Origin: Actinophytocola xanthii
GTDB lineage: Bacteria > Actinomycetota > Actinomycetes > Mycobacteriales > Pseudonocardiaceae
DNA: 64,000 bases
Reading direction: 5' to 3'
Assembly: GCF_001921205.1 (NCBI RefSeq)
Contig: NZ_MSIE01000002.1
Coordinates: 62,001-126,000, forward strand
A program made the translations under genes and the position numbers. The notes under the pieces were generated by a model. That model was not told the origin of the DNA and did no database searches. It saw nothing but the letters and a program-made list of their open reading frames with translations. Each line of letters starts with the position of its first letter. Within the stretch, counting starts at the first letter, position 1. Positions 43,558-64,000 of the stretch are shown here, in pieces.

Positions 43558-45012
43558 CTACCGCCCGCGCGGAGAGGCGAGGAGTCCCTCGAACTCCGTC
43601 ACCCTCGTGCCGTAGCGGGTGTTCGCGGCTTCGAGAACGGCGGCCGCCAGGACGTCGGTCCGGACGTCGGCGAGCTCGCGCGGCGACGTGCCGGCGGCCC
43701 GCTCGTAGTTCCAGACGACGACGTCGAGATGGACCGGCACCCGCAGCCGCCACCCGCTGCGCAGGAGCGCCTGGGCGAACGCCGGGTAGGGCGTGAACCT
43801 CGGGTTGGCGAGCCAGGAGAGCAACGCCGGCTGCGCGACGCTGAAGTCGATCCCGGCTCTCGCCAACGCCTCGACCACGGCCGGGGCGAGCGGCTGCGCG
43901 TTCTCGTGCGGGTTGTGCTCGAGGAGCTCGCCGTAGACGGCCACCGCGTCCAGCGTGGTACTCCGTGCCGCCTCCGGCCTTCCCTCCTCGTGGAGCCGCT
44001 GGGCGGTGGCGAAGAGGGTCTGTGCCCGTTCGATCGAGCGGGCGGTCCCGCGCGGGTCGGTGTCGGTGTTCTCGGCGACCGTCGCCGACGCGACGGTCGC
44101 CGCCAGGACGAGCGCGACCAGTGCGGCCAGCACCGGACGGAGGCGGGTCCAGTGCGGCCCGGTGCGCCTCGGCCGGCTCGCGGCGCGCTCGGCGGGCTCG
44201 GCACGCTCGGCGGGCCTCGACGCCGGTCGCGTGCGCTCGCCGGGCGCGGGGTCCGGTGCCGGTGCCGGGACCTCGGTACACAGGATGGCCGCGTGGGCGG
44301 CCCGCAGCTCGGGCCCGGGGTCGGTGCCCAGCTCCTCGGCCAGCCGCTGCCGCACCGACGCGTACCGCTCCAGGGCCTCCGCCCCGCGCCCGGCCAGGTG
44401 GAGGGCCCTCATGAGCAGGGCCTCGAGCGGCTCGGCGAGCGGGTACTCGGCGGCGAGGTCGGGCAGGGTGGTGACCAGCGGACCGGGACGGCCGAGCCGT
44501 AGCTCGACCTCGGCCCACCGCACCACCGCGTCCAGGCGCCGCCGGTTCCAGCTGTCCCGGACCTGCGCCGCCCAGCTGCCGGGAACACCGGCCAGGGGCG
44601 AGCCCCGCCACAGCTCCAACGCCTCGGCGAGCGCGGCGGCGCGGGCGGCGTCGCACCGCCGGTCGTCGAACTGGTCGGCCAGGCGGCGGAACCGGTGCAG
44701 GTCCACCAGTTCCGGGTCGACGTCCAACACATAGCCGGCATGCCGCCGGTCGATGCGGACCGCGGTCTCCCCGGTGCGGGCGGCGGCCTGTCTCAGCAGC
44801 CGGCGGATCCTGCTCAGGTACGAATACAGCACGTTGCGGGCCTCGACCGGCGGGGACTCGGCCCACACCCGGTCGATGAGCGTCTCGATGGCCACCGGTC
44901 GGCCGGCGTCCACGGCCAGCGCCGCCAGCACGGCCTGTGCACGCGGCGCCCCGACCTCCAACGCCTGGTCGCCCGCCCACAGCTCCACTTCCCCCAACAG
45001 TCGGAACTCCAC
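43558..45012 (-). CDS. SARP/BTAD-family regulator with membrane segment
   Basis: About 484 residues from the GTG at 45012, which follows AGAGGTGAG. An OmpR-type winged helix is at about residues 1-95 (FRLLGEVELWAGDQALEVG, then RIDRRHAGYVLDV). The bacterial transcriptional activation domain follows (about 100-250, LHRFRRLADQF and ERYASVRQRLAEELGTDPG). A Pro/Arg linker, a single membrane helix at about 300-325 and an extracytoplasmic domain of about 160 residues come next. SARPs activate antibiotic clusters. It is divergent from the first biosynthetic gene and is the likely pathway regulator. The membrane-anchored tail is less usual and could sense a signal outside the cell. Confidence 0.85.
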   Translation of the reverse strand: MEFRLLGEVELWAGDQALEVGAPRAQAVLAALAVDAGRPVAIETLIDRVWAESPPVEARNVLYSYLSRIRRLLRQAAARTGETAVRIDRRHAGYVLDVDPELVDLHRFRRLADQFDDRRCDAARAAALAEALELWRGSPLAGVPGSWAAQVRDSWNRRRLDAVVRWAEVELRLGRPGPLVTTLPDLAAEYPLAEPLEALLMRALHLAGRGAEALERYASVRQRLAEELGTDPGPELRAAHAAILCTEVPAPAPDPAPGERTRPASRPAERAEPAERAASRPRRTGPHWTRLRPVLAALVALVLAATVASATVAENTDTDPRGTARSIERAQTLFATAQRLHEEGRPEAARSTTLDAVAVYGELLEHNPHENAQPLAPAVVEALARAGIDFSVAQPALLSWLANPRFTPYPAFAQALLRSGWRLRVPVHLDVVVWNYERAAGTSPRELADVRTDVLAAAVLEAANTRYGTRVTEFEGLLASPRGR

Positions 45013-45587
45013 CCGCTCACCTCTCACGTGATCGACACAACCGAAGCTCGGCAACAGGACGTCTCGGACCACCTGTATGTCGACGTGAGGGAGAAGGTCG
45101 TGATGCCGTGGGCCCGTACCCGGTCGGACCTCGTCCGGCAAGAGACGATTTGGCACGGTACGCCCGCTGACCAAATTGGGCCGCTTGCCGTTGCCGACTC
45201 GGCGTCGAGTACACGCGGCCAGAGTTGTCGCCGTCGTATTCGCGGACGGTTACCGCAATTTTTTCCATACCCGTGGTTATGCGGCGGGCGGCCCAGCGTT
45301 GTTACTCCGTTCCGCCCTGTTCGGTGGGACGGCAGGGTCAGTCGGGGAATGTGGAACTGGACATCCGCCGTCATCGGCCCTCCGGATGGCGCCGGCGGGC
45401 CGCCGGCTCGCGGGCGAGGCGCACGGCAAGGGAAAACGCACTGGTCAGGACCCATTTCGGGCCGGTCGTCGCCGGTGTTGATCAGACTGTGGGTGAGTGG
45501 GCGAACACCGAGAGCATTGTTCACGTTTCGTCTTCTCAGCCCGGTAAATCTGACGTACGCTCCAGTTCGCCATCAGAGTCGGGACTG
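45013..45587. other. 575-bp divergent promoter region of the biosynthetic cluster
   Basis: The region between the SARP gene and the first biosynthetic gene is less GC-rich than its surroundings, with a T6 run near 45259. GGTTA repeats at 45249-45253 and 45275-45279 are candidates for SARP half-sites, but their 26-bp spacing is not the usual 11 or 22. I see no convincing gene here; several open frames continue into the adenylating enzyme but lack its codon bias. Confidence 0.5.
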
Positions 45588-47075
45588 ATGGCAACCCCCG
45601 ATGCGCACCCCTTCGAGGGTGAATTAGTGCTGCTCTTTTCTCGTTGGGAGGCGTTCGCGATTACAGCTACCGAACCGCTGTTCAGCGGTACGTCTGAATG
45701 GGTCGACGAGATATTGATGAATGGCGCAGACAATGGTGTCTGCCTACACCTGCCGGGTGGTCCGATCGCGCGTTCGGCGCTACGCCGGCTGGTCGCCGGC
45801 CGGGAGGAGGCGCTGGTCACGGCCGGGTTGGCGCGCGGCGGCCGCGTCGCGCTGAACCTGCCGCCCTCGCTGGCGTACGTGGCGAACCTGCTCGCCGCCT
45901 GGCGGATCGGCGCCCAGGCCGTGCTGCTGGACCACCGGTTGACCCGGTACGAGGTCGGCGCCGCGCTCGACCGGCTCGGGGTTCAGGTGGTGGTCGGCAC
46001 CGACGGCGGGCGGGGGAACCCGCTGGCGGTGTTCCACGACGTGACCGAGACGATCTCGGTCCGCCGGGGCAGTCCGGCGACCACGCCGCACGCGGTGCTC
46101 CAGCTCAGCTCCGGCTCGACCGGGCCGTCGAAGGTGATCGGCCGGACCGCGGCCGACCTCGTCGCGGAGATCGAGCGGTACACCCGGATCGACGGCGTCC
46201 CGCTGCCCGGCGAACGGGTCATCCTGCTGCCCTCGATGGTGCACGTCCTCGGGCTGGTCGGCGGGCTGCTGTACGCACTGCACGCCGGGGTCGAGATCGT
46301 GCCGCCGCGCCGGCTCACCGGCGAGGGCATCCTCGACGCGGTCGCCTCCGGCGCCACCCCGGCCACCGTGCTCGGGGTTCCGTTCCACATCGGACTGCTG
46401 GGCTCGGTCAGCGACCCGCCGAAGCTCCCGCAGCTCAAGCGGATGACCACCGGTGGGGAGCTCGTGCCCACCGCGGTCTCGACGGCGTTCGGTGAGAAGT
46501 ACGGTGTGCCGCTCGGGAACATGTGGGGCATGACCGAGCTGGGGGTCATCGCGACCGACCTGTTCGGAGAACACCGCCCGGCGCTGACGCCCGCGCCCGG
46601 GATCGAGGTTCGCGAGGCCGGTGGTGAGCTGCTGGTGCGCCGTCCGGAGTCGCCCTACGTCGGGTTGTCCGACCCGAGCCGCTGGGCCGACGGCTGGCTG
46701 CACACGAAGGACGCAGGACGGGTCGACCCCGAGACCGGGCTGGTGACCGTGCTGGGCAGGCTCGACTCGCAGGTGTCGGTCGGCGGGCTCAAGGTCGACC
46801 TGACCGAGGTCGAGCACACGATCACCAGCCTGCCCGGGGTGGAGGCCGCTGTCGTCCTGTACGACAAGGAGATCAGCGCCTTCGTCCAGCTTGCCGACGG
46901 CGTGAGTGGACAGTCGGTCGACGTGGTGCTCGCCGAGCGGCTCGCGGGCTACAAACGTCCGAAGAGGACTCACTACGCGCCGGCCCTGCCCCGCACGACG
47001 ACCGGGAAGCTCGTCCGCGATCCCGCGGTGCTCCGCGAGAGGTTCTCCCCAATCACACTGGAAGGTGAGCGATGA
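45588..47075 (+). CDS. Acyl-adenylating enzyme (class I adenylate-forming), copy 1
   Basis: A 495-residue ANL enzyme. The P-loop-like A3 motif is LQLSSGSTGPSK, the A5 region is GNMWGMTELG, the hinge is near LGRLDSQVSVGG, and the catalytic A10 lysine is in RTTTGKLVR. It would activate a carboxylic acid as the AMP ester and load it on a carrier protein. The ACP gene starts inside its stop (4-bp overlap), so that carrier is the likely partner. The ATG at 45588 is the best-placed start. The substrate is unknown; an aryl or hydroxyaryl acid is conceivable given the 4-hydroxymandelate-synthase-like gene. Confidence 0.85.
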   Translation: MATPDAHPFEGELVLLFSRWEAFAITATEPLFSGTSEWVDEILMNGADNGVCLHLPGGPIARSALRRLVAGREEALVTAGLARGGRVALNLPPSLAYVANLLAAWRIGAQAVLLDHRLTRYEVGAALDRLGVQVVVGTDGGRGNPLAVFHDVTETISVRRGSPATTPHAVLQLSSGSTGPSKVIGRTAADLVAEIERYTRIDGVPLPGERVILLPSMVHVLGLVGGLLYALHAGVEIVPPRRLTGEGILDAVASGATPATVLGVPFHIGLLGSVSDPPKLPQLKRMTTGGELVPTAVSTAFGEKYGVPLGNMWGMTELGVIATDLFGEHRPALTPAPGIEVREAGGELLVRRPESPYVGLSDPSRWADGWLHTKDAGRVDPETGLVTVLGRLDSQVSVGGLKVDLTEVEHTITSLPGVEAAVVLYDKEISAFVQLADGVSGQSVDVVLAERLAGYKRPKRTHYAPALPRTTTGKLVRDPAVLRERFSPITLEGER

Positions 47076-47347
47076 AGGCTGCAGAGGTTCGCGAGTTCGT
47101 GCTGGAGACCCTCCAGGAGATGAACTACGACATCGAGGGCGTCGACGACGGCAGCACGCTCGGACCGGCGGGCGTCGACCTCGAGTCGCTGGCGATGGCC
47201 GAGCTCGCGGTCCGCGTCGAGGACAGGTTCGGCGTCCAGTTCGCGGAGGAGGAGTCCGAGGAGCTGGCGCTGATGACCGTCGGGGAGTTCACCCGCACGG
47301 TGGCGGACCGCGTCGGACGTGTCGCGGGCGCGGGCCAGCCGCAGTGA
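47072..47347 (+). CDS. Acyl carrier protein 1
   Basis: A 91-residue acidic four-helix carrier. The phosphopantetheine site is in GVDLESLAMAEL (Ser 39). It overlaps the adenylating enzyme upstream by ATGA and the second carrier downstream by GTGA. Confidence 0.9.
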   Translation: MKAAEVREFVLETLQEMNYDIEGVDDGSTLGPAGVDLESLAMAELAVRVEDRFGVQFAEEESEELALMTVGEFTRTVADRVGRVAGAGQPQ

Positions 47348-47586
47348 CCGAGCCCGGACCCGTGCGGCGAGACGAGGTCGTGTCCATGATCGCCGCTCTC
47401 GACGGCCGTCCGGTCGCCGAGATCGGTGGCCAGATCGACTCGATGCAGCTCGCATGGCTGGTGCACCAGGTGGAACAGCGCTACGGCGTGGAGATCGAGC
47501 TGGACGACGGGCAGTACGCCCGGATGAGCACGGTGGACGGAGCGGTCGAGGTGTTGCGCGAGGCGATCCCGGCGGTTCCGCGATGA
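47344..47586 (+). CDS. Acyl carrier protein 2
   Basis: An 80-residue protein starting at the GTG that overlaps the stop of carrier 1 (GTGA). GGQIDSMQLAWLVHQVE carries the attachment serine (Ser 33) in an IDSMQL context like that of a peptidyl or aryl carrier. VEIELDDGQYARMSTVDG is the usual helix III region. Its stop overlaps the next ketosynthase start by ATGA. Two consecutive carriers suggest two separately loaded acyl units. Confidence 0.8.
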   Translation: MTEPGPVRRDEVVSMIAALDGRPVAEIGGQIDSMQLAWLVHQVEQRYGVEIELDDGQYARMSTVDGAVEVLREAIPAVPR

Positions 47587-48674
47587 CGGAACCACGGACA
47601 CGCGTGGGGATCACCGGCCTCGCCGCGACCAGCGCCCTCGGCAGGGGAACGCAGGCGCAGCTCGCCGGTGCCCTCGCCGGTGCGGCCGCGTTCGGACCGG
47701 TGCGGCGGTTCGACACCGGCCGGCGCAGGGTCACCGCCGCCGCGACCCTCCCCGACGCGAGCAGCCTGGCCGACGAGCTCGCCGAGGTGGTCAGCGAGGC
47801 GTGCGCCGGTCTCGGCGCGACCGAACGCGCGGAAACGCCGTTGCTGCTGGGGCTGCACGGACACCCGGACGCCGGACGGTCCCCCGAGGCGACCACGGCG
47901 GCGTTCGCCGGGGAGCTGGCGCAGCGCAGCGGCCTCGCCGGGGTGGCGAGGGTATACACGTGCGCGTGCGTCTCCGGCAGCACCGCCGTCGCCGACGCCG
48001 CCGCGCGGATCCGGTCGGGACGGTCGGAACGGGTCGTGGTCGCGGCGGGCTACCTAGTGGAGCCAGACCAGTTCGCCCTGTTCGACGCGGGGCGGGCGCT
48101 GGCGGCCGACGGGGCGGCGAGGCCGTTCAGCGCCGGTCGCGACGGTCTGCTGCTGGGCGACGCCGTGTCCGCGGTCGTGCTCGAACCCGTTGCCGCGCGG
48201 GAGGTGTTGGCGGAGGTGGCCGGCTGGGGCCGAGCGGGGGACGCGCACCACGTCGTCCGCCCCGACCCCGACGGCCACGGCTTGGCCCGGGCGATCACCG
48301 CGGCGTTGCGCCGGGGCCGGATACGCCCGGACGAGGTCGGGTACGTCAACGCGAACGCGAGCGGCGCCGACGGGGACAGTGCCGAGGCGGTCGCGCTGCG
48401 CCGGGCGTTCGGAGCGGCCCGCCCGCCGGTCAGCTCCACCAAGTCCGTGCACGGCCACGGGCTCGAGGGCTCCGGGCTGCTCGAGCTGGTGATCACCGTG
48501 CTCGGCCTGCGGGCGGGCAAACTGCCGGTCAACGTGGGCCACCTCGGGCCCGATCCCGCGTGTGACGTGGACCTTGTCCTCGACGGACCGCGGCGGGCCG
48601 CCAGCCCGTACGCGGTGAGCGTCAACGCCGCCTTCGGCGGTGCCAACACCGCGTTGCTGGTCAGGGCGACATGA
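47583..48674 (+). CDS. Ketosynthase with first catalytic His replaced by Asn
   Basis: A 363-residue thiolase-fold ketosynthase. The nucleophile is C129 in TCACVSGST. The motif that normally reads NAHGT is NANAS here (N258 in place of His). The lysine and second His are kept in SSTKSVHGHG (K287, H292). KS activity in FabF-type enzymes depends on Cys-His-His. With one His lost it may load acyl groups without decarboxylating malonyl-ACP, or act as a partner subunit to the neighbouring KS-like protein. The N-terminal region is also shorter than in FabF (about 410 residues). The Asn codon (AAC) is clear in the sequence. Confidence 0.85.
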   Translation: MTEPRTRVGITGLAATSALGRGTQAQLAGALAGAAAFGPVRRFDTGRRRVTAAATLPDASSLADELAEVVSEACAGLGATERAETPLLLGLHGHPDAGRSPEATTAAFAGELAQRSGLAGVARVYTCACVSGSTAVADAAARIRSGRSERVVVAAGYLVEPDQFALFDAGRALAADGAARPFSAGRDGLLLGDAVSAVVLEPVAAREVLAEVAGWGRAGDAHHVVRPDPDGHGLARAITAALRRGRIRPDEVGYVNANASGADGDSAEAVALRRAFGAARPPVSSTKSVHGHGLEGSGLLELVITVLGLRAGKLPVNVGHLGPDPACDVDLVLDGPRRAASPYAVSVNAAFGGANTALLVRAT

Positions 48675-49165
48675 GCACCGAGCTGGTCGCCGTGACGATG
48701 CCGGAGGGGACCGTGCCGCCGCCGCTGCCGGGGTTCGTCGTGTCCTCGTTCAGTCCGCTCGTCGCCGTGGCCGCCGACCGGTGTCTCACCGCTCGCCACG
48801 GGGACCCGCCCGCCGCAGACGCCGTCGGGCAGCGCACCGCCGTCGTGCTCGTCAGCGGGAGCGGCGACGCGCGCATGGCCGAGCACGTGGCCGACGCGGT
48901 CGACGCCGGCGCCCGGATCGGCCCGCTGCTGTTCTTCCAGGCGGTGCCCAACAGCGTCGCCGGGCACGTCGCCGCCCGCTGGTCCCTGGGGGGCCCGGTG
49001 GTCTGCCTGTGCCCGACGGGCGAGCCGAAGGCCGAAGGGCTGGCCTACGCACGACTGCTGATCGAGGACGGGGACGCCGACGAGGTCCTCCTCGTCTGTG
49101 TCGAACAGGCTGGCGCGGCCGCGTGCGCCCACGCCGTGCTGGTGAGCGAAGGAGAGTCTCGATGA
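48671..49165 (+). CDS. Truncated ketosynthase-like protein (chain-length-factor-like)
   Basis: A 164-residue protein corresponding only to the N-terminal half of the KS fold. LLFFQAVPNSVAGHVAARWSL matches the region before the nucleophile, and GGPVVCLCPTGEPKAEG the nucleophile loop. The Cys at that place is in an unusual setting, and both His motifs are absent because the C-terminal half is missing. The ATGA overlaps on both sides argue for an intact small gene rather than decay. It may form a heterodimer with the upstream Asn-variant ketosynthase, like the short chain-length factors of aryl-polyene systems. Confidence 0.65.
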   Translation: MSTELVAVTMPEGTVPPPLPGFVVSSFSPLVAVAADRCLTARHGDPPAADAVGQRTAVVLVSGSGDARMAEHVADAVDAGARIGPLLFFQAVPNSVAGHVAARWSLGGPVVCLCPTGEPKAEGLAYARLLIEDGDADEVLLVCVEQAGAAACAHAVLVSEGESR

Positions 49166-50769
49166 ACGCAAGGGGCCTGCGCGCGGTCCTGGCGGCTGAC
49201 CCGGACATCGGAGCGGGCAACGTCCTGCACACCGTGCTGGCGCACGGCGCCGACCCGGACGGTCCCGGCCTGGTCTTCGACACCGAGGTCGACGGACATC
49301 CCGCCGAGTACGAGTTCACGCTCGGCGAGCTCGACGCCATGGTCGACGCCCGCGCCGCATGGTTGCACGCCAGGGGGATCCGCGCGCGGGACCCGGTCGC
49401 GGTGTGGGCGAGCGCGGCGGCGGACACGGTGCTGAGCTTCCTCGCGCTCACCCGCGTCGGCGCGATCCCCGCGCTGATGAACGGGAGGATGACCCCGGAC
49501 ATCGCCGCGGAGTTCATCCGCAGGCTGCGCGCCAGGGCCATCCTCGCGGACGCGGCACACACGGACTTGCTGGCCGGGCACGACCTCGGTGCGGAGCTGC
49601 TCGGGCAGCCCGCGGAGCTGGGGCAGGGCGACCCGGCGGCCGCGCCGCCGCACTACCGGCACCACCAGGACGACCCGGTCGTGATCACGCACACGTCGGG
49701 AACCACCGGCGTGCCGAAGGCCGTGCTGCACCTGCACCGGACGCTGTTCGCCTCGCAGCGCCACCTGCTGTCGATGCCGCAGGCGCAGGGCACCGGGCGG
49801 GTGCTCAACGCCCTGCCGATCCCGCACACCGCGACCGTGCTCATGGTCAGCCAGATCCTGTGCAACCGCGGGACGATGCTCTGCCTGTCCCAGCAGGACG
49901 GTCCGACCGTGCTCTCGGCCATCGAACGGTGGCACCCGGAGGCGGTGTACGGCTTCGCGGTGACCTGGTCGGACCTCGCCCGGTACGACCTGTCCACGAG
50001 GGACGTCGGCTCGGTGCGGTTGTGGTTCAACACCGGCGACTGCGCGCACGAGGCCCACGTCCGGCGACTGGTCGCGGTGGGTTCCCGGGAGGTGGTGACC
50101 CGCGAGGGGCGCCGGCGGATCACCGGCTCGCACTTCGTCGACGGCCTCGGCTCCTCGGAGATGGGGCACAACGGGTTCCACGTCACCCACACGCCCGACA
50201 GCGGCCACTACGACCGCCGGATCGGCAGGCCCTACACGTTCGCCGAGGTCGCCGTGCTCGACGCCGACGGCAACGAACTACCCGCGGGGCGGGTCGGCAG
50301 GCTGGGCTTCCGCTCGCCCACGCTCTCCCCGGGGTACTGGAACGACTCGGTCACCACGTTTCGGTCCCGGTGCAACGGCTGGTTCCTCACCGGCGACCTC
50401 GTCCACCGCGACGAGGATGGCAACTACTACCACGTGGACCGTGACCCGGACGCGCTGGTCGGCGACGGCTTCTACACCGCGCTCTCCGAGGAGCGGATCC
50501 TCGCCGGCTGCCCCGACGTGCTCGACTGCACCGTCGTGATCCTGCCGGAGAACGGCCGGGTCGTCACCGACGTGCTCCTGGAGCTCGCGCCCGGCGCGGA
50601 CGAGGACGCCGACCGCACCGCGGCCGTCCGCGCAGCGCTCGGCGAGCGGGTGGGCGCGACGCTGCAGCGCGTGGTGGCGGTGCGGCAGGAGGACATCCCG
50701 CTGACCGTGACCGGCAAGGTGCGCAAGTTCCTGTTGCGCGAGAAGCACCTGACGCGAGGGCCGGCGTGA
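49162..50769 (+). CDS. Acyl-adenylating enzyme, copy 2
   Basis: A 535-residue ANL enzyme with A3 motif THTSGTTGVPKAV, A5-like DGLGSSEMGHNG, the A7/A8 region GWFLTGDLVHRD and the final lysine in PLTVTGKVRKF. It is preceded by GGAGAG and overlaps the truncated KS-like gene by ATGA. Sequence and motifs differ clearly from copy 1, so the two probably activate different acids. No carrier domain is attached. Confidence 0.85.
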   Translation: MNARGLRAVLAADPDIGAGNVLHTVLAHGADPDGPGLVFDTEVDGHPAEYEFTLGELDAMVDARAAWLHARGIRARDPVAVWASAAADTVLSFLALTRVGAIPALMNGRMTPDIAAEFIRRLRARAILADAAHTDLLAGHDLGAELLGQPAELGQGDPAAAPPHYRHHQDDPVVITHTSGTTGVPKAVLHLHRTLFASQRHLLSMPQAQGTGRVLNALPIPHTATVLMVSQILCNRGTMLCLSQQDGPTVLSAIERWHPEAVYGFAVTWSDLARYDLSTRDVGSVRLWFNTGDCAHEAHVRRLVAVGSREVVTREGRRRITGSHFVDGLGSSEMGHNGFHVTHTPDSGHYDRRIGRPYTFAEVAVLDADGNELPAGRVGRLGFRSPTLSPGYWNDSVTTFRSRCNGWFLTGDLVHRDEDGNYYHVDRDPDALVGDGFYTALSEERILAGCPDVLDCTVVILPENGRVVTDVLLELAPGADEDADRTAAVRAALGERVGATLQRVVAVRQEDIPLTVTGKVRKFLLREKHLTRGPA

Positions 50770-52016: not shown

Positions 52017-52021
52017 GGCTG

Positions 52022-55923: not shown

Positions 55924-57174
55924 ATGACCGGACCGACAACGGCTGTCCACAGGGGAACGACCAGCTCGCTCGGTGCGCTGCTCTCCCGACAGGGGCGGCG
56001 GGACCCCAACCCGTTCTACGCGGAGCTGCACCGGCGGGGGCCGGTGTGCGCGCTGTCGGCGCAGGACCGGTTCGACCTGGTGGTACACGGCTACGACGCG
56101 GTGCACCAGGCACTGCGCGACCCGGCCCTGCACGTGATGACCGGTGAGTACCGCGATCGACAGGGCGGCACCCGGTGGCGCGGCCACAGCTCGTTGCGCG
56201 TGCTGGCCGGCTCAATGTTCCTCAGCGAGGGAGCCGACCACAGCCGGATGCGGCGGCGGTTCGCCCAGGCGTTCAGCGCGCGGCGGGTGGCGGCGCTCGA
56301 ACCCGCGGTGAAGCGGATCGTGGCGCGCCGGCTCGACCGCCTCGCCGAGATCGGTGCGGGCGGCGCGCCGGTGGACCTGCTCGCGGAGTTCGCGCTGCCC
56401 GTTCCCAGCGACGTGGTCGGCGAGCTGCTCGGGGTGCCCGAGTCCGACCGGGACTGGTTCCCGCCGCGGGTCCGTGCCTTCGGCGCGATCCTCGACCTCG
56501 GCGCCGGGGTCTGGCGCTATCAGCAGGCGGCCGACGCCGCCGCCGACGAGCTCTCCGGGTACTTCGCCGAGCTGCTCGCCGCCCGCCGGGCGCAGCCGCG
56601 CGCGGATCTGGTGAGCGCGCTGGTCACCGCCGGGGACGGGGTGCCGGGTGAGGACGACGAGCTGATTGCGAACCTGGTGACCACCTACAACGGCGGCTTC
56701 GTCACCACGACCCACCTCATCGGCAACGGGACGCGGATCCTGCTGGACGACCCGGCCGAGAAGGCGCGGGTGCTGGCCGACCCGGCGCGGACGGAGGGGT
56801 TCCTGCGGGAGGTCCTGCGCTACGAGCCGCCGGTGCACTTCTCGACCAGGTGGGCGGCGTCGGCCACCGAGCTCGCCGGGACGGCCGTGCCGAGGGACAG
56901 CAGGGTGCTCGTGCTGCTCGGCGCCGCCAACCGCGACCCGCGCCGCTTCACCGACCCGGACACGTTCGACCCGGGGCGCGACGAGGGGCCACCGCTGGCC
57001 TTCGGCGCCGGCGTCCACTACTGCCTGGGTGCCGCGCTGAGCGCGATGGAGGGCAGGATCGCGCTGCCCATGCTGCTGCGGCGTTTCCCCGACCTCGCGC
57101 TCGCCGGGGAGCCCGGCGAGCGGACGACGCTGATGCTCCGCGGCTACGAGTCCCTCCCGGTGACCGTGTCATGA
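55924..57174 (+). CDS. Cytochrome P450 with atypical I-helix
   Basis: A 416-residue P450 behind AAAGGAGGTG. It has ExxR in EVLRYEPP and the heme loop FGAGVHYCLGAAL with the axial Cys. The I-helix segment reads TYNGGFVTTTH, where most P450s have A-G-x-[DE]-T; the acidic residue is absent. That change is seen in P450s that use the substrate for proton delivery or do unusual chemistry. The stop overlaps the KAS III start (ATGA). Confidence 0.9.
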   Translation: MTGPTTAVHRGTTSSLGALLSRQGRRDPNPFYAELHRRGPVCALSAQDRFDLVVHGYDAVHQALRDPALHVMTGEYRDRQGGTRWRGHSSLRVLAGSMFLSEGADHSRMRRRFAQAFSARRVAALEPAVKRIVARRLDRLAEIGAGGAPVDLLAEFALPVPSDVVGELLGVPESDRDWFPPRVRAFGAILDLGAGVWRYQQAADAAADELSGYFAELLAARRAQPRADLVSALVTAGDGVPGEDDELIANLVTTYNGGFVTTTHLIGNGTRILLDDPAEKARVLADPARTEGFLREVLRYEPPVHFSTRWAASATELAGTAVPRDSRVLVLLGAANRDPRRFTDPDTFDPGRDEGPPLAFGAGVHYCLGAALSAMEGRIALPMLLRRFPDLALAGEPGERTTLMLRGYESLPVTVS

Positions 57175-58430
57175 CAACGACGCTGGCGGACGTCGCCGCG
57201 TTCCTCCCGGAGCGCAGGGTGCCGGTTGAGGAGCTGGGACCCGAGCTGGGGCTGCGCGGGACGCAGGTACGGGTGCTGCGCCGGTTCAACGGTCTGGGGG
57301 AGGTGCGCCGCCAGCGTCCGGGTGAGACGCTGGTCGACCTCCTCGAAGGAGCGGTACGCGCGCTTGCGTCGCTGCGCGGGCGCGAGCACCTGGTGCGGTA
57401 CGTGATCCACGCGCGCGGCGTGCCGGTCGTCGTGCCCTACCCGGTGAACCCGGTGCACGAGCTGCTGGCGAGGCTCGGCCTCCGCTGCACGACCGCGTTC
57501 ACGGTCACCCACCACGCCTGCGTGTCCGCCCTGGTGGCGATCGACGTCGCCGGGCGCCTGGTCGCGCGGCATCCCGACCCGGGTGCGCTCGCGCTGGTGG
57601 TGGCCGGCGAGCAGGTGTTCACCCAGGACCAGCGGCTCGCGCCGGACCACCGCGTGTTCGGCGAGGGGGCCGGTGCCTGCCTGGTCTCGGCCGACGGCCC
57701 AGGGGACGCACTGCTGTCCTTCGCGTCCGGTCAACGCGGCGACCTCGACCACTACGGCACCGACGGCGCCGCGGCGATGGAGGGGTTCGCGCGGGAGTAC
57801 ACCGAGCTGCTCGGTGAGGTGATCCTCGCCGCGGTCAAGCGGGCCGACCTCTCCCTGGACGACATCGCGCTCGTGCTGCCGCACAACGTGAACGTGGTGT
57901 CATGGCGACGGGTCTGCCGTCGGCTCGGCCTGCCGGTGGACCGGGTGCTGCTCGACAACGTGCCGCTGGTGGGCCACACGCCCTCGGCGGACACCTTCAT
58001 CAACCACGCGTCCGCGGTCGCGCTCGGGCGGCTCGCCCCCGGCGACCGGTACCTCACCGCGGGCGCCGGCCTCGGCTCGGTCTTCTCCGCGATGGTCCTC
58101 GAGCACAAGGTCTCCGAACACACCGTCTCAGCGACACACGGGAGCGGGAACATGGCGGCAACCGACCTGCGCACCCGGGTCGTCAGCACCCTCGGTGTCC
58201 TGTTGGGACGGATGTTCGGCGACGACCTCCCCGCGGTGTGCGAGGAGACCAGGCTGTTCGACGAGCTCGGGCTCAGCAGCTCGAGGACCCTCGAGCTGCT
58301 GCTCGCCCTCGAGGACCAGCTCGATCTCCAGGTGGACGTCGAGGAGATCGACCGGCGCGACCTCGCCTCGGTCGGCTCGCTGGCGGACTTCGTCGTGGCC
58401 CACGTGGACGGCGGTGAGCCGTGTTCGTGA
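57171..58430 (+). CDS. KAS III-like enzyme fused to an acyl carrier domain
   Basis: A 419-residue fusion. Residues about 1-325 are a KAS III-type thiolase fold: nucleophile C117 in THHACVSALVAI, His 238 in VLPHNVNVVSW, and VGHTPSADTFINHASAV, where H269 replaces the usual Asn. Residues about 335-415 are a carrier domain with FDELGLSSSRTLELLL (attachment Ser near 370; the customary Asp before it is Ser). The join is in frame. It could load a starter acyl group or transfer an acyl group to another nucleophile, held on its own carrier. A 4-bp overlap with the next gene follows. Confidence 0.85.
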   Translation: MTTTLADVAAFLPERRVPVEELGPELGLRGTQVRVLRRFNGLGEVRRQRPGETLVDLLEGAVRALASLRGREHLVRYVIHARGVPVVVPYPVNPVHELLARLGLRCTTAFTVTHHACVSALVAIDVAGRLVARHPDPGALALVVAGEQVFTQDQRLAPDHRVFGEGAGACLVSADGPGDALLSFASGQRGDLDHYGTDGAAAMEGFAREYTELLGEVILAAVKRADLSLDDIALVLPHNVNVVSWRRVCRRLGLPVDRVLLDNVPLVGHTPSADTFINHASAVALGRLAPGDRYLTAGAGLGSVFSAMVLEHKVSEHTVSATHGSGNMAATDLRTRVVSTLGVLLGRMFGDDLPAVCEETRLFDELGLSSSRTLELLLALEDQLDLQVDVEEIDRRDLASVGSLADFVVAHVDGGEPCS

Positions 58431-59278
58431 CCGGTCGACCGGTGACGGGAACGGGCCTGGCGCTGCGGCGGGTGGCCCGCCGCAGCGAGGACACCGACTC
58501 GCCGCTCGCCGCCCACCCGGCGCTGCGGCCTTACCTCGCCGACCTCGCCGCCGCCCGCGGGCTGGCCCTGCGCGAGGAGGTGCTCGGCACCGGCCAGGCC
58601 TACGCCGAGCTCGCCGCGACCCTGGTCGAGGCGGTCACGTCACCGGAGGAGCCGGTCGACCTGCTGGTGCTGGCCTACGGCGTGCCCGACGTGCAGCCCG
58701 GACGCAACACCGCGCTGCGCCTAGCCGAGCACTGCCCGGGCCGCCCGCTCGCGTTCGCGGTCTGCGACCAGGGGCCTGCAGCGGCGTTCACCGCGCTGCG
58801 GGTGGCCGCCGAGTTCGCGGCGACCGGCGCATGCGCCCGGGCGGTGCTGGTGGTCGCCGAGCAGGCCGCGCTGCCCTACCCGCTCGCCACGCCGGCACCC
58901 ATGCCCGACCGGCACGCGGCGGTGGCGCTGCTGTTGGAGACCGGCCCGGCGCCGGTGGACGTCCGGTCGCACCCGGCGCTGCCGCCCGAGGCGGTCGGTG
59001 CCGTGCTCGCGGCCGAGGTCGCCGAGCTGGTCGGCGAGCGCGACGGCGTCCGGCTCGTCCTGGGGCCGGGGGTGGACGTCGGGCCCGAGACGGGTGTCGG
59101 GCCCGACGTGCTCCGCGCGGCGGCGGGCCAGCCCTACACCGGGACGTGGGCGCGCCTCGCCGAGGGCGAGCCGGGCGCGTTCCTGGTGGTCGCCGACTAC
59201 GACCCGGTGCTCGGCTACCTGTGCGTGGCCGGGTTCGAGAAAAGCCCGCGGCCGGTCGCCCACGCGGCGGTCGGCTGA
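58427..59278 (+). CDS. Short thiolase-fold ketosynthase-like protein
   Basis: 283 residues from the GTG that overlaps the KAS III stop (GTGA); a GTG two codons earlier is possible. FAVCDQGPAAAFTALRVAA resembles the nucleophile loop of KAS III-like enzymes, with a Cys (about residue 100). CARAVLVVAEQAALP is the following strand. The region with catalytic His and Asn is not recognisable, so it may be a non-catalytic partner of the KAS III-carrier fusion. It ends 45 bp before the short repeat-peptide ORF. Confidence 0.6.
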   Translation: MTGRPVTGTGLALRRVARRSEDTDSPLAAHPALRPYLADLAAARGLALREEVLGTGQAYAELAATLVEAVTSPEEPVDLLVLAYGVPDVQPGRNTALRLAEHCPGRPLAFAVCDQGPAAAFTALRVAAEFAATGACARAVLVVAEQAALPYPLATPAPMPDRHAAVALLLETGPAPVDVRSHPALPPEAVGAVLAAEVAELVGERDGVRLVLGPGVDVGPETGVGPDVLRAAAGQPYTGTWARLAEGEPGAFLVVADYDPVLGYLCVAGFEKSPRPVAHAAVG

Positions 59279-59383: not shown

Positions 59384-59384
59384 T

Positions 59385-59409
59385 GACGTCGTCTTCCCGA
59401 GACGACGTC
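59385..59409 (+). terminator. Hairpin directly after the repeat-peptide ORF
   Basis: GACGTCGTCT (59385-59394), loop TCCCG, AGACGACGTC (59400-59409): a perfect 10-bp stem starting 2 nt after the TGA. It may be an attenuator or terminator. Confidence 0.6.
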
Positions 59410-59420
59410 TGACGACGTCC

Positions 59421-59459
59421 GGTGTGCGGGGGCGCGCCCCCGCCGCGTCCCCGCACACC
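59421..59459 (+). terminator. Second hairpin before the exporter gene
   Basis: GGTGTGCGGGG (59421-59431) pairs with CCCCGCACACC (59449-59459). The inner part GGCGCGCCCCC can form an additional stem. It ends 30 bp before the MFS start and would put the exporter gene under separate control. Confidence 0.6.
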
Positions 59460-59489
59460 ATCCGCCGAACCGCGAGAAAGGGTCCGCCG

Positions 59490-60743
59490 ATGCGCCTTCC
59501 GGGTCTCGACGTGCCGAGGGAGAGCAGGCTCCTGGTCTTCGTCGGGCTCGTCGACGCCGTCGGAACCGGGTTGTACATCGCGGGCTTCGCGGTGTTCTTC
59601 ACCCGCGGCGCCGGCCTCTCGGTGGCCGAGGTCGGGCTCGGGCTCACCGTCGGGAACGCCTGCGGGCTCGTCGCGCTCACGCCCATCGGCATGCTGGCCG
59701 ACCGGATCGGGCCCCGCGCGGCGTCGATCCTGCTGCACCACTGGCGCGGCGTCGGCTTCGTCGCGTTCGCCTTCGTGCACGACTTCGTGGCGTTCCTGGT
59801 GGTCTCCTGCGTCGTCGGCATCCCGACCCGGGCCATCGACCCGGTCAGCCAGCTGTACGTGGACCGGCACATCGGCAAGGACCTGCGCATGCGGGTGATG
59901 TCGGTGATGCGGGTCGTCTACAACATCGGGTTCTCGGTCGGCGGTCTGCTCACCACGCTGATCCTGCTGGTCGACACCCGGCCCGCGTTCCTGGCGATCG
60001 TGCTCGGGAACGGGGCCACGTTCTTCCTCGCCGGAATCCTGCTCGCCAGAGTGCCGTTGCTGGCCGACGACCCGCCCGGCCGCAGGACGGCCCGGGGCTG
60101 GCCGCGGTCGCTGCGCCAGGGCAGGTTCCTCGCCGTCACCGGGCTCAACGCCGTGCTGGTGCTGAACACCACCGTGCTGACGCTGGGCATCCCGCTGTGG
60201 GTGGCCACCCGGACCGAGGCACCCACGGCCGTCGTCGCGCCGCTGATGGTGCTGAACACCGTGCTGGTCGTCCTGCTGCAGGTCCGGCTCGCCCGGGGCA
60301 CCGACACGAGGGAGGGCGGGGTCCGCGCGCTGCGCCGCTCGGCGCTCGCGTTCGCCGCCGCCGCGGTCGTGCTGTCCCTGTCCGGGGCACTGGATCCCCT
60401 CGGGGCGGTGGTCGCCGTGGTCGCCGCGACGGTCCTGCTGACCGTGGGCGAGCTCTGGCACTTCGCCGGGAGACTGTCGGTGTCCTACGCGCTCGCGCCG
60501 CGCGACCGGCAGGGCGAGTACCTGTCGGTGTTCTGGCTCGGCTCCGCCGCGGCGCTCATGGCCGGCCCGGTGCTGGTCACGGTCGGGGTCGTCGACCGAG
60601 GCGCACCCGGCTGGCTCGCCCTGGCCGCCGTCTTCCTCGCGACCGGCCTCCTCGTCGGGCCTGCCGTCGCGGCGGCCGCGCGCCAGCTCGCGGCCGGACA
60701 CCCGAGTAACGACACCGGTGAGGTGGTGGGCAGTGCGACGTGA
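59490..60743 (+). CDS. MFS transporter, likely product exporter
   Basis: A 417-residue protein with 12 predicted membrane helices. The loop between helices 2 and 3 reads GMLADRIGPRAAS, the MFS signature. The ATG follows GAAAGGG. Fold and length fit drug:H+ antiporters, so self-resistance by efflux is the probable role. It overlaps the condensation-like gene downstream. Confidence 0.85.
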   Translation: MRLPGLDVPRESRLLVFVGLVDAVGTGLYIAGFAVFFTRGAGLSVAEVGLGLTVGNACGLVALTPIGMLADRIGPRAASILLHHWRGVGFVAFAFVHDFVAFLVVSCVVGIPTRAIDPVSQLYVDRHIGKDLRMRVMSVMRVVYNIGFSVGGLLTTLILLVDTRPAFLAIVLGNGATFFLAGILLARVPLLADDPPGRRTARGWPRSLRQGRFLAVTGLNAVLVLNTTVLTLGIPLWVATRTEAPTAVVAPLMVLNTVLVVLLQVRLARGTDTREGGVRALRRSALAFAAAAVVLSLSGALDPLGAVVAVVAATVLLTVGELWHFAGRLSVSYALAPRDRQGEYLSVFWLGSAAALMAGPVLVTVGVVDRGAPGWLALAAVFLATGLLVGPAVAAAARQLAAGHPSNDTGEVVGSAT

Positions 60744-62133
60744 CGACGTGCCCCGGGGGACGGTGGTCGACCGGGTCCTGGTCCCGTTCGCCGGTGACGG
60801 CGAAGGCGTGGGCGAGCTCGCGTTCGGGCAGCTCGGCCTCTGGCAGTCGATGGCGAGGGGCGTCTCCCGGACGGTGGCCCACGTCGCCGAGCCCGAGCCG
60901 GGCACGACCGTCGCCGCCGTCGCCGACCTGCTCGGCTTCATGGTGGGCAGACACCAGTCGCTGCGCACCACGCTGCTGCTCCGGGACGACGGGCGCAGGC
61001 CACGGCAGCGGGTGGCCGCGAGCGGGGAGGTCCCGCTGCTCGTGGTGACCACGGAGGACGACGACCGGGCCGACGTCGCCGCGGCGCTCTCGGAGCACTG
61101 GCAGGTCGTCCCGTTCGACTACGAGACCGAGTGGCCGGTGCGGATGGCGGCGGTCGTCACGGCGGAGCGCGTCGTGACCCACGTCGTCACCGTCATCCTG
61201 CACACCTCGATCGACGCGTTCGGGCTGCGGGCACTGGTCGCCGACATCGGCGCGCGCGACCCGGCGACCGGCGCACCGGCCGGGCCGGTCACGGCCGTGC
61301 CGCCGCTCGCGCAGGCGGCCTGGGAGGCGAGCCCGGCGGGACGGCGGCAGAACCAGCGGTCGCTGCGGTACCTGGAACGGGTGCTGGCGACGGCGCCGGC
61401 TGAGCTGTTCGGACCGCCCCGCTACGGCGGCGAGCCGCGCCACGAGCTGCTCCGCTACCGCTCACCCGCGCTCGCGATGGCCGCCCACGCGGTCGCCGCC
61501 CGCGAGCGCGTCGACGACTCGCCGGCGTTGCTCGCCGCGTTCCTCGTCGCCGTGGCCAGGGTCACCGGCGTCAACCCACTGCTGACGATCATGTTGGTGT
61601 CCAACAGGTTCCGGCCGGGCTACGCGGACTCGGTGAGCGCGTTGATCAAGGTCACGCCGTTCGTGCTCGACGTCGCGGGCCTCACCCTGGGGGAGGCGGT
61701 CCGGCAGACCGCGGGCAAGGCGCTGAACGCGTACAAGAACGCCTACTACGACGCCTACGAGCAGGACGAGGTCGTCGCGCGGGTGGAGCGCGAGCGGGGC
61801 GTCGCGTTCGACCTGTCCTGCTACTACAACGACCGCCGGCAGCGGGACCGGGTGCACGCCGGTGTCGCGGCGCCCGCGGCGGAACGGATCCACGCCGCGC
61901 TCGCCGAGAGCGAGCTGTCCTGGTGCCAGGAGGTCGGCATCCCGAGGTCCAAGCTCCACCTGTGCCTGGACGATCCGCCCGGCGCCGTCGAGCTGGTGCT
62001 GTCCGCGGACCGGCGCTACTTCCGAAGGACCGACATGACAGCGCTCGCGCTGGCGATCGAGGAGGTGGCCGTGCAGGCCGCGACCCGACCTGACACGCCA
62101 ACCGGCGCCGTCCCCGCGGCGGCGCTGCGATGA
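60733..62133 (+). CDS. Free-standing condensation-domain-like protein
   Basis: 466 residues from the GTG at 60733, preceded by GAGGTGGT; a GTG 15 bp earlier is possible. The NRPS condensation fold is recognised by ELAFGQLGLWQSM at the start, HQSLRTTLLLRDDG, the active-site region VILHTSIDAFG, and SNRFRPGYADSVSALIKVTPF near the C-terminal half. The usual HHxxxDG is LHTSIDA: the second His and the Asp are kept, the first His and the Gly are not. It may join two carrier-bound units through an amide or ester bond. Confidence 0.8.
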   Translation: MRRDDVPRGTVVDRVLVPFAGDGEGVGELAFGQLGLWQSMARGVSRTVAHVAEPEPGTTVAAVADLLGFMVGRHQSLRTTLLLRDDGRRPRQRVAASGEVPLLVVTTEDDDRADVAAALSEHWQVVPFDYETEWPVRMAAVVTAERVVTHVVTVILHTSIDAFGLRALVADIGARDPATGAPAGPVTAVPPLAQAAWEASPAGRRQNQRSLRYLERVLATAPAELFGPPRYGGEPRHELLRYRSPALAMAAHAVAARERVDDSPALLAAFLVAVARVTGVNPLLTIMLVSNRFRPGYADSVSALIKVTPFVLDVAGLTLGEAVRQTAGKALNAYKNAYYDAYEQDEVVARVERERGVAFDLSCYYNDRRQRDRVHAGVAAPAAERIHAALAESELSWCQEVGIPRSKLHLCLDDPPGAVELVLSADRRYFRRTDMTALALAIEEVAVQAATRPDTPTGAVPAAALR

Positions 62134-63113
62134 CGGCGTCCGCTGTGGACAGCGCGGTCGGTCTGTACCGGACGGTGCGGCTGGTCCGGCGGTTCGAGGA
62201 GCGGGCGATCGAGCTGGTCCGGTCGGGCGACATCGTCGGCGGCATCCACCCCTACGTCGGGCAGGAGGCGGTCGCCGCCGGGGTGTGCGCCGCGCTCGGT
62301 GCCGGCGACCTCGTCACCGGCACCCACCGCGGACACGGGCACGTGCTCGCCAAGGGCGCCGACCCGGCCCGGATGATGGCCGAGCTGACCGGCCGGGAGA
62401 GCGGCCTGAACAAGGGGCGCGGCGGCTCCATGCACGCGGCCGACTTCGGGGTCGGGGTCCTCGGCGCCAACGCGATCGTCGGTGCCGCGGGGGCCATCGC
62501 GACCGGGGCGGCGTGGGCGCGGCGGCGGCTCGGCACCCCGGTCGTCGCGGCGACGTTCTTCGGTGACGGCGCGGTCAACGAGGGCATGCTCCTGGAGGCG
62601 TTCAACCTGGCCGCGCTCTGGCGGGTGCCGGTGTTGTTCGTGTGCGAGAACAACGGCTACGCCACGACGATGCGCGTGGACGACGCGGTCGCCGGCAGCA
62701 TCACCGGGCGAGCCGAGGCGTTCGGCATCCCCGCGTCCACGGTGGACGGTCAGGACCCGGAGGCGGTGCTCGCCGCCGCCCGGGAGGCGGTGGACCGGGC
62801 CCGTGCCGGCGCCGGGCCGTCGTTCCTGGAGTGCCGGACCCGGCGGTTCGACGCCCACCACACCTTCGAGCACGTGGTGCGGCTGCGCTACCGCACCGAC
62901 GAGGAGCTGGCGGGGATCCGTGCCCGCGACCCGGTGGACATCCAGGGCGCACGCCTGGACGCCGCCGTACGCGCCGAGGTGGACGAGGAGGTGGAGCGTG
63001 TGCTGGCGAACGCCGTCGAGTTCGCGCTCGCGAGCCCGTTGCCCGACCCGCTCACCGCGCTGGACCACCTGTACGCGAGCGGGCTCCGGCCCCGACCGGG
63101 GAGTGGTGTCTGA
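62130..63113 (+). CDS. 2-oxoacid dehydrogenase E1 alpha subunit (TPP-dependent)
   Basis: 327 residues. The thiamine-diphosphate motif starts at FFGDGAVNEG and ends in VCENN, and GLNKGRGGSMH is the conserved substrate-site segment of PDH/acetoin-type E1 alpha. It works as an alpha2beta2 enzyme with the next gene to decarboxylate a 2-oxoacid and pass the acyl group on. It overlaps the condensation gene by ATGA and E1 beta by TGATG. In a biosynthetic cluster such pairs can make an acyl starter; in pristinamycin, PglB/PglC act on phenylpyruvate. 4-Hydroxyphenylpyruvate or its oxidised relatives are candidate substrates here. Confidence 0.88.
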   Translation: MTASAVDSAVGLYRTVRLVRRFEERAIELVRSGDIVGGIHPYVGQEAVAAGVCAALGAGDLVTGTHRGHGHVLAKGADPARMMAELTGRESGLNKGRGGSMHAADFGVGVLGANAIVGAAGAIATGAAWARRRLGTPVVAATFFGDGAVNEGMLLEAFNLAALWRVPVLFVCENNGYATTMRVDDAVAGSITGRAEAFGIPASTVDGQDPEAVLAAAREAVDRARAGAGPSFLECRTRRFDAHHTFEHVVRLRYRTDEELAGIRARDPVDIQGARLDAAVRAEVDEEVERVLANAVEFALASPLPDPLTALDHLYASGLRPRPGSGV

Positions 63114-64000
63114 TGCCCTGGCTGTCCTACCAGAAGGCGCTCAACCGGGCGCTCGCCGACGCGATGGCCGCCGACGAGACGGTGTTCGTGCTCGGCGAGG
63201 ACGTCCGGGCCGCCGCGTCGACCGTGACCGCGGGCCTGGTCGGGCGGTTCGGGCCGGAACGGGTGCTCGACACCCCGCTGTCCGAGCAGGGCTTCACCAG
63301 CTTCGCCACCGGCGCCGCGCTCGTCGGCATGCGCCCCGTCATCGAGTTCCAGATCCCCGCGCTGCTGTTCCTGTCCTTCGAGCAGATCACCAACCACGCG
63401 CACAAGTTCTCGCTGATGACCGGCGGACAGTGCCGCGTTCCGGTGACCTACGTCGTGCCCGGGTCCGGGTCGCGCACCGGGTGGGCCGGGCAGCACTCCG
63501 ACCACCCGTACAGCCTGTTCGCCCACGTCGGGGTCAAGACCGTCGTGCCGGCGACGCCGGCCGACGCCTACGGGCTGCTGCGCTCGGCGGTCCAGGACCC
63601 CGACCCGGTGGTGGTGTTCGCGCCCTCGGCCGCGCTCGCCCGCCGCGAGGACACCGACCTGGCCGCGCTCGCGCCGGTGCCGCTCGGCTCGGGACGGGTG
63701 CACCGCCGCGGTACCGACGTCACGGTGGTCGCCGTCGGACACCACGTGCAGGACGCGGTCGCGGTGGCCGACGACCTCGCCGAGACCGTGTCGGTGGAGG
63801 TGTTCGACCCCAGGACGCTCTACCCGTTCGACTGGGACGGGCTCACCGAGTCGGTCGGCCGGACCGGGCGGCTGGTGGTCATCGACGACTCGAACCGGAC
63901 GTGTGGAATCGCCGGCGAGGTGATCGCGACGATGGCGGAACGGGTGCGGCTGGCCGCCCCGCCGGCACGGGTCACCCGCCCCGACGGCGCGGTGCTGCCG
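63113..64000 (+). CDS. 2-oxoacid dehydrogenase E1 beta subunit, 3' end outside window
   Basis: The first 296 residues are present and the frame is still open at the edge; family length is about 325. LGEDVRAA, LDTPLSEQGF, AGQHSDHPYSLFAHVGVKTV and VEVFDPRTLYPFDWD are the usual E1 beta landmarks. The start overlaps the E1 alpha stop by one base (TGATG). Whether E2 and E3 follow cannot be seen. Confidence 0.88.
   Translation, partial: MPWLSYQKALNRALADAMAADETVFVLGEDVRAAASTVTAGLVGRFGPERVLDTPLSEQGFTSFATGAALVGMRPVIEFQIPALLFLSFEQITNHAHKFSLMTGGQCRVPVTYVVPGSGSRTGWAGQHSDHPYSLFAHVGVKTVVPATPADAYGLLRSAVQDPDPVVVFAPSAALARREDTDLAALAPVPLGSGRVHRRGTDVTVVAVGHHVQDAVAVADDLAETVSVEVFDPRTLYPFDWDGLTESVGRTGRLVVIDDSNRTCGIAGEVIATMAERVRLAAPPARVTRPDGAVLP

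Follow-up and report, generated by a model that had tools for sequence, protein, structure and literature searches.

The question raised by this locus is what a long run of co-oriented biosynthetic genes could be making. The locus lies in a 64,000-nucleotide stretch of the Actinophytocola xanthii genome (hereafter the window; G000:C112:62001-126000 of an 8.34 Mb genome, contig NZ_MSIE01000002.1). An original prediction, made from this DNA alone, described it as an unrecognised cluster mixing ketosynthases (KS), adenylating enzymes of the ANL family, a 4-hydroxymandelate synthase (HMS) and a condensation protein. This observation is right and its reading incomplete, so that the prediction is partly supported. 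The product-forming cluster is real, lies mostly within the window, and has relatives in many actinomycetes. It appears to make L-4-hydroxyphenylglycine (Hpg) and to join it to nitrogen-nitrogen (N-N) bond chemistry. We give an even chance to the reading that its 28 genes convert Hpg into a small molecule through discrete carrier-protein chemistry, most likely with an N-N bond being introduced. The cluster is best read as an unassigned, Hpg-linked relative of the ava and cma clusters, devoid of 3-amino-4-hydroxybenzoate (3,4-AHBA) genes, whose first KS usually misses a catalytic histidine.

Extent and conservation of the cluster

Genes were called with a purpose-written codon-usage programme, start codons being estimates. 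The contig was examined up to position 185000, and positions beyond 64000 carry the window numbering on past its right end. Eighteen plus-strand genes (34 to 51) run from 45717 on, the last one, E1 beta, ending at 64087; at least 16 co-oriented genes had been predicted, and all those named are present. The cluster indeed continues past 64 kb, as rightward extension reaches genes 52 to 61, approximately 12 kb beyond the window. Genes 34 to 61 thus amount to 28 genes, from 45717 to the equivalent position 75786. Actinophytocola algeriensis holds counterparts for all 28, in the same order and orientation, with 60-91% identity; three additional short reading frames were called within that copy, and its immediate flanking genes differ. 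Because the same gene order recurs in other genomes, the cluster is not due to chance.

Pfam and NCBIfam confirmed the two ANL enzymes, the HMS family (shared with 4-hydroxyphenylpyruvate dioxygenase, HPPD), PhyH, DUF3050, O-methyltransferase, cytochrome P450, major facilitator superfamily (MFS) exporter, condensation protein and E1 alpha/beta pair. The units are free-standing rather than modular, as predicted, and family scans detected no ketoreductase, dehydratase or acyltransferase among genes 33-51 or 52-61. The claimed lack of a thioesterase holds inside the window and fails past 64 kb, where genes 52-61 include two GDSL esterases, an alpha/beta hydrolase and a hotdog thioesterase, along with an FMN dehydrogenase, an aminotransferase, a second KAS III, a second MFS protein, a third ANL and a second KAS III-like partner.

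A KS-alignment scan yielded 242 relatives, the best 80 of which were kept. Since 34 of these 80 loci are from Micromonospora and five from Salinispora, locus counts are not independent. Each gene was counted by tblastn at self-set thresholds, in stretches of at most 10 kb on each side, misses including truncation. Among the 80 loci, the first KS (KSn) is found in 80, its chain-length factor (CLF)-like partner and ANL-a in 79 each, the second KS (KSII) in 74, HMS and PhyH in 73 each, ANL-b in 72, E1 alpha and E1 beta in 64 each, and DUF3050 in 57. The core recurs in Micromonospora, Salinispora, Kribbella, Catellatospora, Actinokineospora and Kitasatospora. On wider maps of nine clusters, HpgT-type aminotransferase genes are present in all nine, and accessory hydrolases, a third ANL and a second MFS protein in several. 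No description of the whole gene set or family was found in the open-licence PubMed Central (PMC) literature, in line with the claim that no known cluster matches; for six genes, nevertheless, that claim does not stand.

A block collinear with cmaA1-A6 and avaA1-A6

These six genes open the cluster, and include two free acyl carrier proteins (ACPs):

45717..47075, + strand: gene 34, ANL-a, acyl-ACP ligase of the CmaA1/AvaA1 type (AMP-binding 7.9e-26; alternative start 45225)
47099..47347, + strand: gene 35, carrier ACP1, in the place of cmaA2 (PP-binding 0.00077, just below the Pfam cut-off)
47386..47586, + strand: gene 36, carrier ACP2, in the place of cmaA3 (PP-binding 0.0032, below the Pfam cut-off; 36% identity to the cma-type carrier)
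47604..48674, + strand: gene 37, ketosynthase KSn, in the place of cmaA4 (ketoacyl-synt domains; Cys122-Asn251-His285)
48671..49165, + strand: gene 38, short CLF-like partner, in the place of cmaA5 (AmcG model 37/80 bits; 38% identity to the cma-type CLF)
49162..50769, + strand: gene 39, ANL-b, putative diazotase/N-nitrosating type, in the place of cmaA6 (AvaA6 model 491/975 bits)

As genes 34-39 (ANL, two carriers, KS, CLF, ANL) are collinear with the cmaA1-A6/avaA1-A6 homologues, ANL-b is grouped with diazotase or N-nitrosating enzymes, and not with acyl-CoA ligases. According to PMC10777205, the clusters for p-coumaric acid (cma) and avenalumic acid (ava) share with the present one, in identical order, a ligase acting on acyl-ACP, a pair of carriers, KS, CLF and a diazotase-type ANL. 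The comparison was made with a cma-type cluster, G215:C34, whose homologues of genes 34-39 keep this order and are 43, 43, 36, 44, 38 and 44% identical. There, proteins in the CmaI and CmaH places (the latter a PF01959 match) precede A1-A6, followed by a transposase-like gene, proteins in the CmaB and CmaA7 places, CreE and CreD. This block order agrees with Table 1 of PMC10777205. In addition, the ACP1 motif DLESLA is conserved across 78 aligned rows.

The present cluster differs from cma and ava in lacking 3,4-AHBA synthase genes, a denitrification enzyme and a ketoreductase, and in adding HMS, a putative 4-hydroxymandelate oxidase (HmO), a putative HpgT, PhyH, DUF3050, the E1 pair and a second KS. 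Its KSn is of a mostly Cys-Asn-His type, in contrast to the Cys-His-His of the cma-type KS. The 134 clusters of PMC10777205 were selected through 3,4-AHBA genes, and the Hpg-type family would therefore fall outside that set.

No 3,4-AHBA synthase gene is present among genes 33-61. One gene of this type (PF01959) was observed elsewhere in the window's genome, at G000:C189:17521-18615. Its existence, and the use of 3,4-AHBA by the cma A1-A6 block, would suit a pathway starting from 3,4-AHBA, with the Hpg enzymes supplying a second moiety. We give this very little credence: the PF01959 gene is on another contig, and nine of the 12 genomes searched have none, including core-bearing members of Salinispora, Micromonospora, Kribbella, Catellatospora and Kitasatospora as well as A. 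algeriensis. The 3,4-AHBA starter was rejected on account of these nine genomes.

Collinearity with cmaA1-A6, whose pathway finishes with N2 loss, also suggests diazotisation-dependent deamination, in which ANL-b diazotises an amine, the nitrogen is lost and the product carries no N-N bond. This outcome is quite unlikely, as family scans of genes 33-61 place no protein as CmaA7, the enzyme of NAD(P)-dependent denitrification, a negative judged from annotation and not with an A7 model.

ANL-b and proposed nitrogen-nitrogen chemistry

ANL-b scores 491 bits against the ANL diazotase model NF058622 (AvaA6; curated cut-off 975 bits) and 149 against the next model. The ANL of G215, at 1029 bits, is the sole one above this cut-off among 249 genomes. 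Compared with solved structures, ANL-b matches 8ztz at 414 bits, Tri17 at 307 and a third at 269, the next ordinary ligase reaching 104; nothing on either 8ztz or 9xb8 was found in the open-licence PMC literature. In a 34-row ANL tree, ANL-a and the cma A1 gene form a pair (100/99), and ANL-b is split from ANL-a and ANL-c at 100/100. The ANL-b rows of 17 Hpg-type clusters and four rows of another cluster kind form a 21-row set (96/100). This set lies within a larger group of 30 rows (100/100), which brings ANL-b together with diazotase-type enzymes, apart from the acyl ligases, and to which three ANL enzymes adjoining CreE also belong. Only one row of the tree, of the cma A6 type, exceeds the AvaA6 cut-off.

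By sequence, ANL-b is of the diazotase/N-nitrosating type, an identity that the original prediction missed, as it did the HamA type of the DUF3050 protein. By homology, the cluster would carry out N-N chemistry.

The probable hydroxyphenylglycine route

52022..53089, + strand: gene 41, HMS (best PDB match 2r5v)

HMS scores 327 bits against 2r5v, the hydroxymandelate synthase HmaS; the next entry, labelled HPPD, reaches 300 and the Streptomyces avermitilis-type 1t47 255. Across HMS and 71 relatives, 35 columns conserved at 95% or more, with the start Met as one of them, have another residue in the HPPD encoded by this genome; they include HMS Ile340 and Tyr344, where HPPD has Phe. Beyond the window, an FMN enzyme is best matched by 4-hydroxymandelate oxidase (359 bits), and the context favours HmO. 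Its gene overlaps by four bases that of an aminotransferase, class I/II by family models and presumably the enzyme named HpgT. Aminotransferase relatives (E up to 1e-90) are present in 43 of the 45 cluster-bearing genomes, two of which contribute two loci each; these genomes derive from a set of 48 loci, L193 being left out. The two misses are Streptomyces loci, L161 and L207, whose clusters have no HMS. These two show a core variant without HMS and ANL-b, holding instead proteins of 725 and about 298 residues, which we assume to be PABA-synthase-like and AurF-like, respectively.

The predicted origin of the aromatic unit in 4-hydroxyphenylpyruvate is borne out, and the unit is probably hydroxyphenylglycine. 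The set HMS, putative 4-hydroxymandelate oxidase and aminotransferase resembles the Hpg pathway of glycopeptide-type antibiotics (structures 2r5v and 5zzp were matched), with the difference that Hpg is not taken up here by a modular nonribosomal peptide synthetase (NRPS).

The DUF3050 protein and the proposed source of oxidised nitrogen

54058..54855, + strand: gene 43, DUF3050, putative HamA-type heme-oxygenase-like protein (DUF3050 2.1e-95)

A model predicted from 23 sequences (pLDDT 79.6, below 50 at residues 66-101) was used for a fold search. The first match was 9vwb (E 6.6e-12, TM 0.75/0.80, 35% identity), titled 'HamA, a Heme-Oxygenase-Like Enzyme', followed by UndA, a TenA homologue and CADD; 9vwb is also the sole PDB sequence match (1.9e-55). 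From sequence and predicted fold, the protein is heme-oxygenase-like and nearest to HamA of the fragin/valdiazen cluster. His49, Glu93, Glu94, Asp96, His105, Glu107, His207, Asp211 and His215 are conserved in 23/23 rows, and Glu47 in 22/23; they include candidate diiron ligands, by analogy with those of SznF named in PMC11705231. A DUF3050/HamA-type protein is what the cluster shares with ham (PMC11659414 and PMC11705231); by family scans, AurF-like HamC, the NRPS HamD and a HamE-type protein are, in contrast, not seen among genes 33-61. Altogether, 27 DUF3050 genes occur in 25 of the 249 genomes. By comparison of place lists by eye, 19 have an ANL-b-type gene at a distance of about 5 kb or less (18 from one genus, g29, and the remaining one from the window's genome) and eight do not.

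Some relatives hold CreE instead, with or without CreD. In G192, G132 and contig 9 of A. diospyrosa, the second condensation gene is followed by both CreE and CreD, and CreE without CreD follows PhyH in contig 18 of A. diospyrosa and in A. inagensis. CreD was called with NF052556, at 570 and 566 bits, below the cut-off of 650, and CreE from PF13454 and gene position, NCBIfam models giving no match. All five clusters are from Actinokineospora or bear that genus handle (G192 shares handle g2 with two of them). None of the five has DUF3050, and no CreE occurs within the stretches of the 57 DUF3050-bearing loci. About half of the published ava/cma diazotisation clusters have neither CreE nor CreD. 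The pattern fits a substitution of one nitrogen source by the other, as judged from the gene content of a single genus. Exclusion as a statistical proof was rejected: the CreE-bearing clusters represent one genus, and 23 of the 80 loci lack DUF3050 from any cause, truncated stretches included. Likewise, G192 has a DUF3050 gene elsewhere in its genome, which speaks against strict exclusion. CreD was also rejected as a family-wide mark, being found in only 15 of 45 genomes at E 1e-140, in scattered places.

An amino acid--[acyl-carrier-protein] ligase of the seryl-tRNA-synthetase kind (289/357 bits) was observed in G192 (L037:2428-3312) and its relatives. Such a ligase and a phosphopantetheinyl transferase occur in the Actinokineospora-type clusters, and neither is on the map of the window cluster.

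A serious if unlikely alternative is that ANL-b, of diazotase lineage, is now an ordinary acid-activating ligase, the DUF3050 protein acting as a carbon oxygenase or desaturase and the product being an Hpg ester or amide without an N-N bond. The distance of ANL-b from the AvaA6 cut-off would agree with this, as would the failure to find a CreE-CreD pair in the window's genome and the fact that heme-oxygenase-like proteins include the carbon-acting UndA, next after HamA in the fold list. It is opposed by the bit-score gap between the matches of ANL-b and ordinary ligases, its position within the A1-A6 order, HamA being the only PDB sequence match of DUF3050, and the fact that five relatives have CreE next to these genes.

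Ketosynthases and remaining genes

The KSn alignment has 82 rows: 63 Cys-Asn-His, 10 Cys-His-Gln, eight Cys-His-His (two of them controls, the cma-type KS and the window KSII) and one with a gap at Cys. Rows below 50% identity were dropped, and two genomes, G132 and G014, are entered twice, the second time as L166 and L192. Triads were taken from alignment columns. The 63 and 10 rows imply that most KSn members miss one of two histidines, and KSn may have lost decarboxylation. In KSII, Cys-His-His is intact in 73 of 75 rows, the other two having a gap.

KSn and its short CLF-like partner recall AmcF-AmcG of cispentacin biosynthesis (PMC10698177), and weak model matches (AmcF 133/325, AmcG 37/80 bits) could indicate that the pair forms a cyclopentenone from 2-oxoglutarate in the same manner. 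This is highly improbable. Both scores are below cut-off, active site and neighbours differ, AmcF-AmcG elongates with malonyl-ACP (PMC10698177) and KSn mostly has no catalytic His, and the cma block is the better fit. Cispentacin-type cyclisation was rejected, the model scores being only weak.

The remaining features are as follows:

43558..45174, - strand: SARP regulator (BTAD 1e-34), divergent from gene 34
50766..52016, + strand: gene 40, KSII, FabF-like (Cys162-His302-His337)
53122..54030, + strand: gene 42, PhyH-type oxygenase (PhyH 1e-23; SnoK 46 bits)
54864..55889, + strand: gene 44, O-methyltransferase (Methyltransf_2 9e-43)
55924..57174, + strand: gene 45, cytochrome P450 (p450 5.5e-28)
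57171..58430, + strand: gene 46, KAS III fused to a carrier domain (ACP_syn_III_C 9.1e-16, PP-binding 7.7e-05; Cys117)
58442..59278, + strand: gene 47, KAS III-like partner without catalytic Cys (alignment with KAS III; weak predicted fold)
59490..60743, + strand: gene 48, MFS exporter (MFS_1 4.3e-21; alternative start 59424)
60748..62133, + strand: gene 49, free-standing condensation protein (Condensation 1.8e-11; HxxxD kept)
62145..63113, + strand: gene 50, thiamine diphosphate (ThDP)-dependent E1 alpha (E1_dh 6.4e-66; human pyruvate dehydrogenase E1 alpha 179 bits)
63113..64087, + strand (window edge 64000): gene 51, E1 beta (Transket_pyr 2.6e-28)

The three predicted carriers are two free proteins and the domain on the KAS III fusion. 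Of the five predicted KS or thiolase-fold proteins, KSn, the CLF-like protein, KSII and KAS III were confirmed; the fifth, gene 47, has no match in Pfam or NCBIfam and lacks both Cys and His in the catalytic columns. All 12 KAS III proteins examined have a Cys, a His and a further His at the usual Asn place. Their partners have Cys in that column in 0/12 cases and His in 0/11 aligning there, with a conserved DQG motif in 11/12. The predicted model of gene 47 is weak (pLDDT 68.5, pTM 0.56); its fold matches are mostly of KAS III type among the 50 listed, at TM of only 0.26-0.32, and the fold claim was dropped on account of this model. The list includes 6et3 and 5dwz, of PqsBC. PqsBC similarly associates a KAS III having an active Cys with a partner that lost it; the present pair differs by the fused carrier domain, the His at the usual Asn place and the DQG motif. 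In a separate search, the KAS III-carrier protein was found in 24 of the 249 genomes of the order, in other cluster kinds included. The PhyH motifs are conserved across 73 rows.

The predicted divergent SARP gene is present on the minus strand, with no counterpart beside the A. algeriensis cluster; judging from this comparison, it is probably not a conserved cluster part. Elsewhere in the window are a tandem of two similar secreted proteins (genes 26 and 27, 34398-35778) and a secreted protein (41546-42154, - strand) with a predicted mature end starting HGTIVSP, a start that resembles chitin-active lytic monooxygenases.

Among the relatives, L138, L143 and other Micromonospora or Salinispora loci have, upstream of ANL-a, a second type II KS/CLF pair accompanied by putative cupin and ACP-cyclase proteins, which resembles a spore-pigment cluster, as well as acetyl-CoA-carboxylase-like genes. 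L048-L051 are another cluster kind, where a relative of ANL-b occurs together with an ABC pair, a glycosyltransferase-like protein and either the KAS III pair or KAS III alone; L048 also has squalene-hopene-cyclase-like, UbiA and polyprenyl-synthase genes.

Proposed pathway

Hpg synthesis is the firmest step of the proposed mechanism and N-N formation the least secure. For the former, homology and context make a strong case: HMS, the HmO-like oxidase and the HpgT-like aminotransferase would convert 4-hydroxyphenylpyruvate to Hpg. The A1-A6 logic would then apply by homology. ANL-a may load the aromatic acid onto a carrier, as AvaA1/CmaA1 do, and KSn-CLF, one decarboxylation histidine short, would hand the acyl group on without malonate extension. 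KSII, with its full Cys-His-His, could achieve C-C extension together with ACP1, using an acyl unit that the ThDP E1 pair would supply. Oxidised nitrogen would come from the HamA-type DUF3050 protein or, in some relatives, from CreE with or without CreD, and ANL-b, using ATP, might transfer it as a nitroso unit to an amine, so that a diazo group or N-N heterocycle is formed. PhyH, the methyltransferase and the P450 may tailor the product, the KAS III pair and condensation protein may transfer a further acyl unit, and the MFS proteins would export it. On chemical reasoning, ring closure of a ketide-extended Hpg, once nitrosated, could lead to a 4-hydroxypyrazole. In its most detailed form, which we regard as tentative and rather improbable as a whole, a HamA-type diiron oxygenase would replace CreE/CreD as the N-oxide source, ANL-b would nitrosate the alpha-amine of carrier-bound, ketide-extended Hpg to an aryl diazo compound or 4-hydroxypyrazole, KSn would be a transfer gate, and the pathway would be widespread in actinobacteria.

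Several observations weigh against the main reading of the cluster. ANL-b is well short of the AvaA6 cut-off, the carrier domain scores fall just short of those of Pfam, and the 30-row group also has six ANL enzymes without CreE or CreD within 20 kb. The L-lactate oxidase entry (354 bits) is nearly level with 4-hydroxymandelate oxidase for the FMN enzyme, and no HmO was found in the A. oryzae stretch at the tblastn threshold used. Six of 45 genomes hold DUF3050 in the cluster plus a CreD-type gene elsewhere, so that exclusion is not genome-wide, and genome searches found neither CreD nor DUF3050 in G014 and G058. The window's cluster has neither CreE nor CreD, and in its genome the best CreD-type (378 bits) and CreE-type (318 and 317 bits) matches are on different contigs or apart. 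PMC11705231 treats a role of HamA in N-N formation as a hypothesis, and PMC11659414 describes the enzymes of diazeniumdiolate formation as still elusive and hydroxylamine intermediates as forming without need of HamA.

Implications

This large orphan cluster family, found in several actinomycete genera, including Micromonospora and Salinispora, probably yields N-N compounds derived from Hpg. Most of it would escape searches that start from 3,4-AHBA genes (as in PMC10777205) or from CreE/CreD. Since related clusters pair the same diazotase-type gene with either DUF3050 or CreE, the role of HamA-type proteins can be put directly to the test.

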